Below, in pieces: positions 46,538 to 49,667 of a DNA stretch of 64,000 nucleotides. A program made the translations under genes and the position numbers. Source of the DNA: Janibacter sp. Soil728 (lineage in GTDB: Bacteria > Actinomycetota > Actinomycetes > Actinomycetales > Dermatophilaceae); contig NZ_LMRZ01000004.1 of the NCBI RefSeq assembly GCF_001428305.1, positions 167,314 to 231,313 on the forward strand, given 5' to 3'. The number at the start of each line of letters is the position of its first letter. The stretch's first letter is position 1. The notes beneath the pieces are model-generated. The model was not told the DNA's origin. It worked only from the letters and a program-made list of their open reading frames with translations, and made no database searches.

Positions 46538-47205
46538 GTGTCATCGTGGTGGCCGTGGGCCCCGCGGGCGAGGTCGGGCGCTGGCCCTTGGCGCACGGGC
46601 AGGACCCGGTGGACCTGCTGTCCGAGCACGGCTGGGTCGGGAGCCCGGTGCGGACCGAGCTCGTCGAGGGCCAGGTCGAGGTGCGCTATGACGTGGAGCC
46701 GCTCGCACCGGTCGTCGACGTGGTCGAGATCCCCGTCGGAGCAGCTGGCGCCCGGACTTTCCAGCGACTGGCGGCGTACGCGATCGTCGTCGACGAGGGG
46801 CGGCTGCTGCTGTCCCAGCTGGCCTCGTGGGTCGGCGGCGGCGCGGGGCTGTGGACGCTGCCCGGCGGAGGGATCGATCCGGGGGAGGCGCCACTCGACG
46901 GGGTCGTGCGCGAGGTCCATGAGGAGGCCGGTCAGCATGTCGTCGTCGACGCGCTCGTGCAGGTGCAGTCCCTGCACTGGATCGGGGATGTCGCGGCGGG
47001 GGATCGGCACGAGGACTTCCACGCGGTGCGGCTGATCCACTCGGCGACCTGCCCTGTCCCCACGCCCGCCCGCGTGGTGGAGGTCGACGGGTCCACGGCT
47101 GCTGCCGCGTGGGTCCCGTTGGGGGAGGTCGGTGACCTGGCGCTGTCCGACATGGTGCGTCTGGCCTGGCCGCATGTACCAGGTGGGGACTCCTACCCGG
47201 TGTAG
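46534..47205 (+). CDS. Nudix hydrolase
   Basis: 223 aa. A complete Nudix box, GGGIDPGEAPLDG then VVREVHEEAGQ, lies at about residues 111-134 in a C-terminal Nudix domain. The N-terminal 75 residues are an unassigned extension. It probably hydrolyses a nucleoside diphosphate derivative. ATG 46534 overlaps the glycosyltransferase stop by 4 nt, hinting at nucleotide-sugar or related housekeeping. Confidence 0.9.
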   Translation: MSVIVVAVGPAGEVGRWPLAHGQDPVDLLSEHGWVGSPVRTELVEGQVEVRYDVEPLAPVVDVVEIPVGAAGARTFQRLAAYAIVVDEGRLLLSQLASWVGGGAGLWTLPGGGIDPGEAPLDGVVREVHEEAGQHVVVDALVQVQSLHWIGDVAAGDRHEDFHAVRLIHSATCPVPTPARVVEVDGSTAAAAWVPLGEVGDLALSDMVRLAWPHVPGGDSYPV

Positions 47206-47210
47206 GAGTC
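47188..47210 (+). terminator. hairpin overlapping Nudix stop codon
   Basis: 9-bp arms GACTCCTAC/GTAGGAGTC with a CCGGT loop; the TAG stop lies within the right arm. A short terminator or 3'-end stabiliser. Confidence 0.55.
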
Positions 47211-47226
47211 GGCGCTGGCGGTCGCC

Positions 47227-47232
47227 TAGGCT
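47227..47232 (+). promoter_or_regulatory. -10 box of small membrane protein gene, leaderless
   Basis: TAGGCT 7 nt before ATG 47240. Confidence 0.6.
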
Positions 47233-47239
47233 GCCGGGC

Positions 47240-47575
47240 ATGTCAGCCCTGCACATCGTCCTTTACAGCCTGCACATGATCGCCATGCTCGCGATCATCG
47301 CCGGACCCTTCGTCGCCGGTCGTGGACACCTCATCCAGGTGTGGGGCGCGCGCATCCAGCTGCTGCTCGGTCTCGGTCTCACCGGTCTGGCCGAGGCCGG
47401 CGACGACCCGGTCAACCACGCCAAGATCGGCACCAAGCTCGTCGTCATGATCGCGGTCCTGGCCTGCGCCGAGATCGGCAACGCCAAGAGCAAGCGCGGG
47501 GAGAACGGCAAGACCCTCGCCCTGGTCGCCGCCGCTCTGGCGGTCGTCAACGCGGTCATCGCCTTCGCCTGGTGA
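47240..47575 (+). CDS. small integral membrane protein
   Basis: 111 aa with three or four hydrophobic helices (about residues 5-26, 36-50, 63-82, 92-110). No family recognised. It contains the polar stretch EAGDDPVNHAKIGTKL between helices. Ends 32 bp before the left hairpin of the DUF559 unit. Confidence 0.75.
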   Translation: MSALHIVLYSLHMIAMLAIIAGPFVAGRGHLIQVWGARIQLLLGLGLTGLAEAGDDPVNHAKIGTKLVVMIAVLACAEIGNAKSKRGENGKTLALVAAALAVVNAVIAFAW

Positions 47576-47607: not shown

Positions 47608-47694
47608 CGCGTGTCGTACTGCGGTTCGCCCGTGAATGGCCGCTTGTCGCCCAACTCCTCGTCAGGCGATGAGTGAGCTGCAGTACGACACGCG
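47608..47694. repeat. hairpin H1 of DUF559 unit
   Basis: 87 bp with perfect 15-bp ends CGCGTGTCGTACTGC/GCAGTACGACACGCG. The right arm encodes RVSYC, the C-terminal residues of the DUF559 protein, and its stop lies in the loop. Same ends as H2. Confidence 0.92.
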
Positions 47695-48534
47695 TTGTCG
47701 GGTCACCCAGGCGATGACCTCGCGGACCCAGTCGGGTCGGAACATCACGTGCTCCCACGCGAAGTGGAGCACGATCCACCCGGCCAGCGTCATCTCGTTG
47801 TGCCGCCAGGAGTCACGCCGGACGTCCTCGCGGGTCCTGTGGAACTCCAGGCTGTCGGCCTCGAGGGCGATCCGGGTGTCGGGGTTGCCGACGTCGGCGT
47901 GCAGCACGCGCCCGTCACGCAGTCGGATCGGCACCTGCGGCACCCAGTGGCGGTCGGCGGCCTCGATGGCCGCAGCCCTCAAGCCCGACTCGAAGGGGTT
48001 GGCCGCCTCCGCGCTCGCCAGCTCCAGGACCCGACGCGCGGCCGTCCGCCCCGTCCGGGGAAGCACGACCGCGGCGAGCTCCTCGGCCGTCACCGCGCCC
48101 GAGCGCAGTGCCGAGTCGGCCACGGCCAGCCCCTCCGCCAGCGGCAGGTCCCTGGCGCAGTCGATGACGGTGCGCAGCGGCTTCGTCGCGCGCAGCCCGA
48201 CGTCGCCCGCGGCCAGGGTGCGGAACCGCAGGGCCACGTCGTCAGGCACCGGGATGCGCCGCGACCGGGGGGCGACCAGCTCGGGAGGGTCAGGGGCGTG
48301 CAGCACGCCCCATCCGTGGTGCAGGGCCGCGCTCCGATGGCTCAGGTGTGCCCCGAGCTGCGCCGCGCGAGCGGGCACCCCGTCGAGCGGCAGGCCGTAG
48401 ACGCCGCGCCGGTGCCGAGCCACGAGCCCGGCCGTCAGCGCAGCGTCGAGCGTCGCCTGCGTCGTGGTCTCGAGCAGCTCGGCAAGCGTGGCCGAGCCGC
48501 CGTGCTGGGCGACGATGAGGGGGACGACTGACAT
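47662..48534 (-). CDS. AbiEi-like N-domain plus DUF559 endonuclease-fold protein
   Basis: 290 aa. The N-terminal 50 residues (VAQHGGSATLAELL ... GLVARHRRGVYGLP) form the winged-helix domain labelled 'type IV TA antitoxin AbiEi'. The C-terminal 100 residues (IALEADSLEFHRTREDVRRD ... GWIVLHFAWEHVMFRPDWV) are a DUF559 domain, related to the Vsr/restriction endonuclease fold; the Glu-Ala-Asp pair may be catalytic. No AbiEii toxin gene is adjacent. The last codons run into hairpin H1. The gene is flanked by H1 and H2, so the two may form one unit. Start ATG 48534 or GTG 48540; no ribosome-binding site. Confidence 0.82.
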   Translation of the reverse strand: MSVVPLIVAQHGGSATLAELLETTTQATLDAALTAGLVARHRRGVYGLPLDGVPARAAQLGAHLSHRSAALHHGWGVLHAPDPPELVAPRSRRIPVPDDVALRFRTLAAGDVGLRATKPLRTVIDCARDLPLAEGLAVADSALRSGAVTAEELAAVVLPRTGRTAARRVLELASAEAANPFESGLRAAAIEAADRHWVPQVPIRLRDGRVLHADVGNPDTRIALEADSLEFHRTREDVRRDSWRHNEMTLAGWIVLHFAWEHVMFRPDWVREVIAWVTRQRVSYCSSLIA

Positions 48535-48587
48535 CCCCACACACTGGCGCAGCCGGCCCGAGCGGCCGCCAGCTTTTCCACAGCACG

Positions 48588-48668
48588 GTGTCGTACTGCA
48601 GTTCGTCGCGCCGGGGCCGGCTCAGGCCCGTGCTCTCGTCACCGGGAGCGCGAACCGCAGTACGACAC
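48588..48668. repeat. hairpin H2 of DUF559 unit
   Basis: 81 bp with 18-bp arms GTGTCGTACTGCAGTTCG/CGAACCGCAGTACGACAC (one mismatch) and inner GC-rich stems. It lies upstream of the DUF559 gene and directly after the qor stop. Ends match H1. Confidence 0.92.
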
Positions 48669-48677
48669 GCGCCTCCC

Positions 48678-49667
48678 TCAGGAGACGAGGATGAGCTTGC
48701 CCGTCGTGGCACGCCCTTCGAGCGCCCGGTAGGCCTCGGCAGCGTCGGCGAAGGAGTACCGGCCGCCGATGGCGATGTCGAGCCGCCCGCTGGAGATGTC
48801 GTCGAAGAGCTCTCGCCCGCGCATCATCAGCTCCTCCCGCTCGCTGATGTAGTGGGCCAAGGACGGGCGGGTGACGAAGAGGGACCCGCCGGCGTTGAGC
48901 CGCTGCAGGTCGAAGGGGGGTACCTGCCCCGACGCCCCGCCGAAGAGCACGAGGGTGCCGCGGGGACGCAGCGAGGACAGGGACGCGTCGAAGGTTGCCT
49001 TGCCCACGCCGTCATAGGCGACGTCGACTCCCTTCGGGGCGCCGAGCCGCTTGGCCGCAGCCTTGATCTCGCCGGCCAGGTCGTCGGTCTCGGAGTAGTT
49101 GATCAGCTCGGAGGCGCCGCGCGAGCGCGCGATCTCGAGCTTGGCGTGGGATCCGGCGGTCGCGATGACCGTGCCACCACGGGAGGTGATCATCTGGGTG
49201 AGCAGCTGGCCGACACCGCCGGCGGCTGCGTGCACGAGGGCGACCGTGCCCTCCCCGACGGGGTAGCAGCCCGTGACGAGCGAGTGCGCGGTCATGCCCT
49301 GCAGCACTGCGGCGCAGGCGGTCTCGAGGTCGACATCGTCAGGGACGGGCACGAGCCGGGCGGAGTCGGCGATGACGAGACCGGCGTGCAGCCCGTCGAC
49401 CATCGACCACGCGACCCGGTCGCCGACGGACACCAGGGCGTCCTCTCCGACGGCGCGCACCGTCCCGGCCGCCTCGAAGCCCTGGACGTAGGGAGGAGAC
49501 ATGCGATAGATCCCCTCGCGCTTGTACGCGTCGACGAAGTTGACGCCCCCGGCGGCGACCTCGACGAGCGCCTCTCCGGGACCCGGATCCGGCACCTCGC
49601 GCTCCTCGAGCGCGAGGACCTCGGGCCCTCCGTGGCGGGTGACGACGAGCGCAGTGGTGGTGGTCAT
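48678..49667 (-). CDS. qor: NADPH:quinone oxidoreductase (zeta-crystallin type)
   Basis: 329 aa, MDR superfamily without zinc. Nucleotide-binding motif HAAAGGVGQLLTQM near residues 143-156 and GGVNFVDAYKREG near 40 are typical of quinone reductase. It reduces quinones by one electron with NADPH in the cytoplasm. Apparently leaderless. Confidence 0.92.
   Translation of the reverse strand: MTTTTALVVTRHGGPEVLALEEREVPDPGPGEALVEVAAGGVNFVDAYKREGIYRMSPPYVQGFEAAGTVRAVGEDALVSVGDRVAWSMVDGLHAGLVIADSARLVPVPDDVDLETACAAVLQGMTAHSLVTGCYPVGEGTVALVHAAAGGVGQLLTQMITSRGGTVIATAGSHAKLEIARSRGASELINYSETDDLAGEIKAAAKRLGAPKGVDVAYDGVGKATFDASLSSLRPRGTLVLFGGASGQVPPFDLQRLNAGGSLFVTRPSLAHYISEREELMMRGRELFDDISSGRLDIAIGGRYSFADAAEAYRALEGRATTGKLILVS

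Follow-up and report, generated by a model that had tools for sequence, protein, structure and literature searches.

Janibacter sp. Soil728 carries, within a 64,000-nucleotide stretch of contig NZ_LMRZ01000004.1 (positions 167,314 to 231,313; hereafter the window), a DUF559-type gene that lies between two matching DNA hairpins. Protein and hairpins probably, although far from certainly, form two parts of one system that is built like REPIN-RAYT around an unrelated enzyme. The gene–hairpin association itself is well supported: the architecture of the locus, the bracketing of DUF559 genes by hairpins and its specificity, the co-occurrence of hairpins with the gene, the co-variation of hairpin arms with the protein, and the spacing of the arms are all direct observations on genomes. 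In REPIN-RAYT systems, as described in the available parts of the literature, a single-copy, vertically inherited gene is flanked by its own repeat and accompanied by dispersed hairpins, which have conserved inverted arms and a spacer that is variable in sequence and constrained in length. Genomes with the gene hold more copies, arm sequences co-evolve with the protein, and genes are repeat-specific where families coexist (PMC3116915, PMC8049555, PMC3733652, PMC8266576). The DUF559 system may work like a REPIN-RAYT without being one, because no HUH transposase, the enzyme that defines such systems, was found: RAYT/HUH (Y1_Tnp, PF01797) matches occur in 0 of 16 Janibacter genomes, with positive controls in 5 of 14. 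We call it a new kind because the enzyme is unrelated; judged only on its architecture, it would count as a variant. The original prediction for this DNA had suggested a layout like that of repetitive extragenic palindrome (REP)/RAYT systems with an unrelated enzyme, which is supported by bracketing, co-occurrence and co-variation and by the lack of PF01797 matches in the 16 genomes. No report of a DUF559–hairpin link was found in the literature listings searched, with subscription papers and preprints lying outside that search.

The gene, DUF559-1, is on the minus strand at window positions 47662–48540 and encodes 292 aa with an AbiEi-like N-terminal part and a DUF559/MTES_1575 (Vsr-like) nuclease domain. 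Hairpin H1 (81 bp, 47611–47691; covariance-model match G000:C4:214924-215004) has arms of 17–18 bp, and an outer CGC/GCG pair extends it to 87 bp (47608–47694). Hairpin H2 (81 bp, 48588–48668; covariance-model match G000:C4:215901-215981) stands on the 5′ flank of the gene. Arms of H1 and H2 are identical in type, GTGTCGTACTGC(A/G)GTTCG. Both hairpins fold stably as DNA (z of −5.6 for H1 and −4.9 for H2, with 0 of 200 shuffles equally stable), and the folding is stable on both strands. The arm 12-mer, with at most one mismatch, occurs four times in the window compared with a mean of 0.26 and a maximum of 3 in shuffles. Folding and arm counts measured against shuffles thus establish the two matching hairpins around one DUF559 gene. 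The right arm of H1 was said to encode the end of the gene, and this is confirmed: positions 47662–47691 (minus strand, 30 bases) hold the last nine residues and the stop. Five orthologues with TGCAG-type arms share a similar protein C-terminus, RV..CSSL.

Bracketing extends well beyond the window. The comparison set comprises 16 Janibacter genomes (G000–G015, with G000 the window genome), in which 21 of 26 DUF559-type loci have hairpins with scores of at least 11 on both sides (counted by eye). Orthologues of the window gene are bracketed on both sides in 7 of 12 cases and on one side in 4 more, with only weaker hairpins in G004. A second group (DUF559-2, 36–43% identity) is bracketed in 13 of 13 cases by wholly different arms, built around CGGGTACGACG. 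A third G000 paralogue is bracketed on both sides by arms TGCATTGCC(C/A)TA(T/G)GG(C/G)AATGCA, and a fourth is more distant (28% identity, E 7e-5; gene start not called). The four DUF559-type genes found in G000 therefore have four different hairpin families. Beyond Janibacter, the best 80 of 198 relatives were taken as named actinobacterial loci, of which 78 have full flanks (L120 and L128 were dropped because of cut flanks). Hairpins with matching arms lie on both sides in 35/78 named loci compared with 0/175 control open reading frames (ORFs), which are mechanical frames of at least 600 bases in the same loci rather than called genes. The proportion is 29/69 once the nine loci shared with the Janibacter set are removed. 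Whole-hairpin comparison gives 30/78 named loci versus 1/233 displaced windows, and a hairpin score of at least 11 on one side or more is reached in 64/78 named loci versus 28/175 control ORFs; named loci of one genus or genome are non-independent in all of these counts. With bracketing in several genera, co-occurrence and co-variation, the specific link between hairpin and nuclease gene is stronger than the sequence alone could reveal. Stability on both strands and positions near gene ends at the window locus would also suit plain transcription terminators between genes, an explanation that we consider barely credible: termination does not need conserved 17-bp arms, fixed spacing or a matching pair around one gene family, and the controls show that the pattern is special to DUF559 genes.

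Two of these paralogues have hairpins of individual character. Those of the third paralogue (L019:1324-1391 and 2446-2510; G000:C1, ~798.7–799.9 kb) have arms that are themselves near-palindromic, TGCATTGCCCTATGGCAATGCA, and short matches to this motif occur at several other places in G000. Those of the fourth (L020:1420-1481 and 2540-2593; G000:C3, ~297.4–298.5 kb) measure 54–62 bp and have GTCGnTGTGC(A/G)GG arms on both sides.

Copies of the window hairpin are dispersed through the genome. The 3.64-Mb G000 genome has 16 exact arm matches, compared with none for the reversed pattern; in two cases (L013, L014) the arm stands by itself with no hairpin. A covariance model finds nine sites in G000, which are H1, H2 and seven others; none of these seven adjoins any of the four DUF559-type genes found with the window protein as query. 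The original prediction held that the hairpins occur nowhere else, which is true inside the window and untrue for the whole genome, with its 16 exact arm matches and nine hairpin sites. Hairpins at loci without a DUF559 gene had also been named as refuting evidence; the seven G000 sites are of this sort, but a REPIN-like system predicts them. Across the 16 genomes the model finds at least 74 sites, 0–11 per genome and 0–9 besides the gene's own (in one covariance-model search), which are lower bounds because 150 first-look candidates were scored per genome. Arms are nearly invariant and interiors highly variable, although those of the 81-bp type share an oriented CGACGAG motif. Lengths are quantized. 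Among 26 hairpins found model-free, 18 are 80/81 bp and 8 are 91/92 bp long, with none between. By the model, 71 of 74 sites lie within one base of 70, 81 or 92 bp, a test that is biased towards 81 and 92 because the model was trained on these two main lengths. The 11-bp steps, of about one helical turn, suggest recognition of the arms from one face of duplex DNA; alternatively, they reflect the inheritance of two subfamilies. For the named loci, 16 hairpins were searched in 14 of their genomes (L109 being outside this search), which gave 16 non-flanking matches of a genome's own hairpin in six genomes at E ≤ 0.001. There were also four matches to the hairpin of another genome, of which three spanned its full length.

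Hairpins and gene tend to occur together. The family-2 arm GCGGGTACGACGNNCA is present in 13/16 Janibacter genomes and has no occurrence in G002, G007 and G008, where DUF559-2 is also not found at E ≤ 1e-10. Family-1 sites average 5.75 in the 12 genomes with DUF559-1 and 1.25 in the four without it (p 0.006, kinship uncorrected). Exclusion of the gene's own border hairpins weakens the contrast to means of 4.25 and 1.0 (p 0.03, kinship uncorrected). These results bear on whether the hairpins are an ordinary repeat family, such as miniature inverted-repeat transposable elements (MITEs), that is moved by some other transposase and adjoins DUF559 genes by chance or site preference. Inverted arms at fixed spacing resemble MITEs, and the seven other G000 copies have no DUF559 neighbour among the genes found. 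Same-family bracketing in 35/78 loci versus 0/175 controls, different families at paralogues of one genome, interiors far more variable than arms, and the absence of family-2 arms from 3/4 genomes in which DUF559-2 was not found all argue to the contrary and make a MITE family very improbable.

Arm sequences vary with the gene. At the gene, TCG is followed by the tetramer TACT in G000, by TACT and in one case TGCT in G003, and by TCCT in G012; the gene-border tetramer is CGCG in G008, G013 and 3/4 cases in G005, and CACG (once CACT) in G004. Dispersed arms carry the cognate tetramer in 56 of 83 readable arms from 45 hairpins, whereas permutation of genome labels gives a mean of 23.6 and reached 56 in 2 of 10,000 trials. 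Variation of hairpins with the cognate protein, a check that had been proposed beforehand, is therefore found. Cognate arms number 12/13 in G000, 12/12 in G003, 7/10 in G012, 5/8 in G005, 2/2 in G013, 1/2 in G010, 2/2 in G014 and 2/4 in G015. G009 and G011 were left out of this count because their gene-border arms are unreadable in the TCGnnnnGCAGTT frame; their seven dispersed sites have no clean match to their own gene arms. The exact arm GTGTCGCGCGGCAGTT occurs, among the 16 genomes, solely in G005, G006, G008 and G013, with one copy in G006, which lacks DUF559-1. C-terminal domains of the G008 and G012 proteins group together (97/94) despite different arms, and the N-terminal tree is unresolved; domain swapping as a source of arm specificity is only a lead.

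The protein was predicted from the letters to combine AbiEi-like and Vsr-like DUF559 domains, and both the predicted structure and Pfam searches of relatives match this. MTES_1575 is below the Pfam cut-off in the window protein itself. Among 38 aligned relatives, 37 match MTES_1575, 34 match DUF559 and 17 match AbiEi_4 at E ≤ 0.01. In the predicted structure, the N-terminal part matches AbiEi and the nuclease part is Vsr/homing-endonuclease-like, with the I-Bth0305I homing endonuclease domain as the best structural match in a list from which absence of a family does not exclude that family. A sequence-profile search of solved structures gave three matches, the best being NGO0050 at E 0.17. Residues D216, E227, H234 and D243 are invariant in 38/38 cases, and the D216-D229-H234 spacing of 13 + 5 is that of Vsr D51-H64-H69 in the available part of PMC12907096. 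A Vsr-type nuclease fold with its catalytic set is thus predicted. The predicted fold and catalytic spacing resemble those of Vsr/VsrA DUF559 endonucleases, from which DUF559-1 differs by its extra AbiEi-like part and cognate hairpins. Vsr mismatch-repair enzymes nick T:G mismatches and have a linked cytosine methyltransferase; no methyltransferase was found in the neighbouring frames scanned with Pfam, the rest of the genome not having been searched. The predicted PD-(D/E)XK/Vsr-like enzyme with an AbiEi-like part also differs from the HUH tyrosine transposase of REPIN-RAYT. CGTC-tagged REPs are likewise palindromic repeats that apparently lack a dedicated transposase; by the available parts of their description, they are set apart as 20–40 bp units that are mainly alphaproteobacterial, with no mention there of a DUF559 link.

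The AbiEi-like part is central to the strongest rival explanation, in which the hairpins are operators and an AbiEi-like autoregulator binds repeats at its own gene and in a dispersed regulon, with the nuclease fold incidental or otherwise used. AbiEi and Rv2827c, which the N-terminal part resembles in its predicted fold, bind inverted repeats in their own promoters, according to the available part of PMC7319586, and helical-turn spacing fits a dimer on duplex DNA. DUF559-1 differs from both in carrying a nuclease domain, and no AbiEii (DUF1814) toxin was found in the Pfam-scanned adjacent frames at the window locus. A hairpin at the 3′ end of the gene is unexpected for an operator, promoter-side H2 is missing in G010, G014 and G012 where gene frames are open, and the four invariant residues suggest that the nuclease matters. 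The operator explanation is unlikely, although it is more plausible than the other rivals. A selfish homing or guard system, whose nuclease would attack sites that are foreign or unoccupied, with the hairpins as labels of self DNA or as templates for repair, is less plausible. It draws on the structural match to I-Bth0305I, on AbiEi models of the PADLOC defence library that match the protein (best E 4e-8), and on a sub-threshold TnsA-like match in NCBIfam (E 0.0024). However, there is no interrupted target: DUF559-1 differs from I-Bth0305I in lying between two whole elements and not inside a split target. Pfam also shows no defence or modification gene in three neighbouring frames of the window locus (PADLOC was not run there), which give a NUDIX match, an oxidoreductase match and no match.

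DUF559-1 occupies a constant position. It lies between the same two genes in all 12 of the 16 Janibacter genomes that have it, and the other four have no gene there. In the window, the syntenic anchors are a plus-strand ORF on the left (47240–47575; a longer frame, 47132–47575, has no Pfam match) and a minus-strand gene of the zinc-binding alcohol dehydrogenase family on the right (48678–49667). The block is thus between convergent genes, as had been noted, with the plus-strand ORF ending at 47575 and the minus-strand oxidoreductase at 48678. The further suggestion that the block is a small mobile unit with the hairpins as its own ends is not supported, given this constancy in 12/12 genomes, in which single hairpins vary. 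A moving gene-plus-ends block (an insertion sequence or composite transposon) was accordingly rejected within Janibacter. Relatives are rare on mobile replicons at E ≤ 1e-5, with 2 among 72,556 plasmid records and 1 among 50,697 phage records. A 42% identical relative lies at MT837367.1:3941-4651, in an 8.6-kb unannotated faecal "Bacteriophage sp." record.

Turnover is seen at the gene locus and at dispersed sites. G010 and G014 (proteins 93–94% identical) retain the gene and H1 but lack H2 with a precision of a few bases; G012 also lacks H2, and gene frames are open in all three. The gene is gone from G001, where H1 and ~30 bp of the gene end remain (by eye). G006 and G002 have neither the gene nor this hairpin at the locus, and in G007 (C5:40943-43006) ~2 kb of other DNA stands in place of the hairpin–DUF559–hairpin block. 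For dispersed sites, a list of 27 in G000 and G010 was drawn up and part of it aligned. Flank matching shows that 5/7 second-family sites of G000 are common to G010. P_C1_181 (G000) and Q305 (G010) are filled in both genomes. Q3121 is a short scar in G000, remnants of the arms persist in G010 at A_C1_820 and A_C1_37, the G014 counterpart of A_C5_58 is a remnant, and Q1159 is missing with ragged edges in G000 and G014; alignments of P_C1_782 and Q2490 gave no resolved state. These comparisons record loss and precise absence of hairpins, not proven insertion. At G000:C1:216.6 kb (L293), orthologous to L257:669-776 of G010, only GTTACGTGCAGGTAGC is left, which represents the outer tips of a second-family hairpin and looks like an excision scar.

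Several observations weigh against a REPIN-RAYT-like system. The DUF559 gene is flanked by its own hairpin family as in REPIN-RAYT, but 43/78 named loci fail the strict arm-matching test; these may be decayed, one-sided or truly hairpin-free. Dispersed hairpins with conserved arms and a fixed-length variable spacer are common to both systems, but populations are small here, at 0–11 sites per genome compared with at least 69 REPINs reported for 300 E. coli genomes in the part of that literature available. Moreover, in 8/14 genomes searched with hairpins of the named loci, no copy away from the gene was seen at E ≤ 0.001. Co-variation of arms with protein, the third likeness, has an exception in G009, where dispersed hairpins carry TACT and gene borders carry CACAAGGACTGCA, and partial exceptions in G008 and G004, with cognate dispersed arms in just 7/16 and 6/14 cases. 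G008 also holds mixed and hybrid hairpins, which could be a transition state. Co-occurrence is imperfect: G014 (79% complete) has nine family-2 arms with DUF559-2 not found, G010 (protein 94% identical) has one site away from the gene, G013 has no dispersed site by model and one arm by pattern, and G007 holds two good hairpins without DUF559-1. Arms can be common to related genomes by descent, which makes counts non-independent. No convincing recent insertion was seen among the aligned dispersed sites, where polymorphism is mostly loss or decay. Lastly, binding and cutting by the DUF559 protein and movement of the element are steps that we infer.

A mechanism can nevertheless be proposed for a REPIN-RAYT-like DUF559 system. 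The DUF559 gene is a single locus of constant position within the genus, bordered by cognate hairpins, and copies of the border element form the small dispersed population. In duplex DNA, the paired inverted arms are probably what the AbiEi-like domain reads, and nicking or cutting at the element is probably the task of the Vsr-like domain. Repair or replication could then excise or copy the element, so that excision, loss and copying would be rare events. More tentatively, and with rather less confidence than we have in the system itself, actinobacteria could have an independently evolved counterpart of REPIN-RAYT, in which DUF559/Vsr-like nucleases that carry an AbiEi-type reader, sometimes as several different pairs in one genome, would each recognize their own duplex hairpin by arm sequence and helical phase and copy or excise it at a low rate. 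If this is true, much of the actinobacterial DUF559 family would be hairpin-element nucleases. Many actinobacterial DUF559 members, whose function is unknown by Pfam name, would gain a substrate that is immediately testable, since the cognate hairpin can be read off beside each gene. A further implication would be two or more separate origins, with unrelated enzymes, for the arrangement of one gene with dispersed hairpins, which bears on why bacteria maintain hairpin populations.

Other short repeats were encountered in the same genomes. A sequence of ~39 bp, GAGCTTGCGAAGCAAGCGCCTCGAAGG... (query 2689–2727, flanking the G010:C1:2490.5 kb site), matches G000, G010 and G014 at dozens of places; it is a short dispersed repeat of a further kind and shows no sign of being linked to the hairpins described here. 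At L249 (G010:C1:305.5 kb), a different hairpin-like pair, GCGGGTGAAGGGCAAGGGATGGCCC..., adjoins a second-family hairpin.
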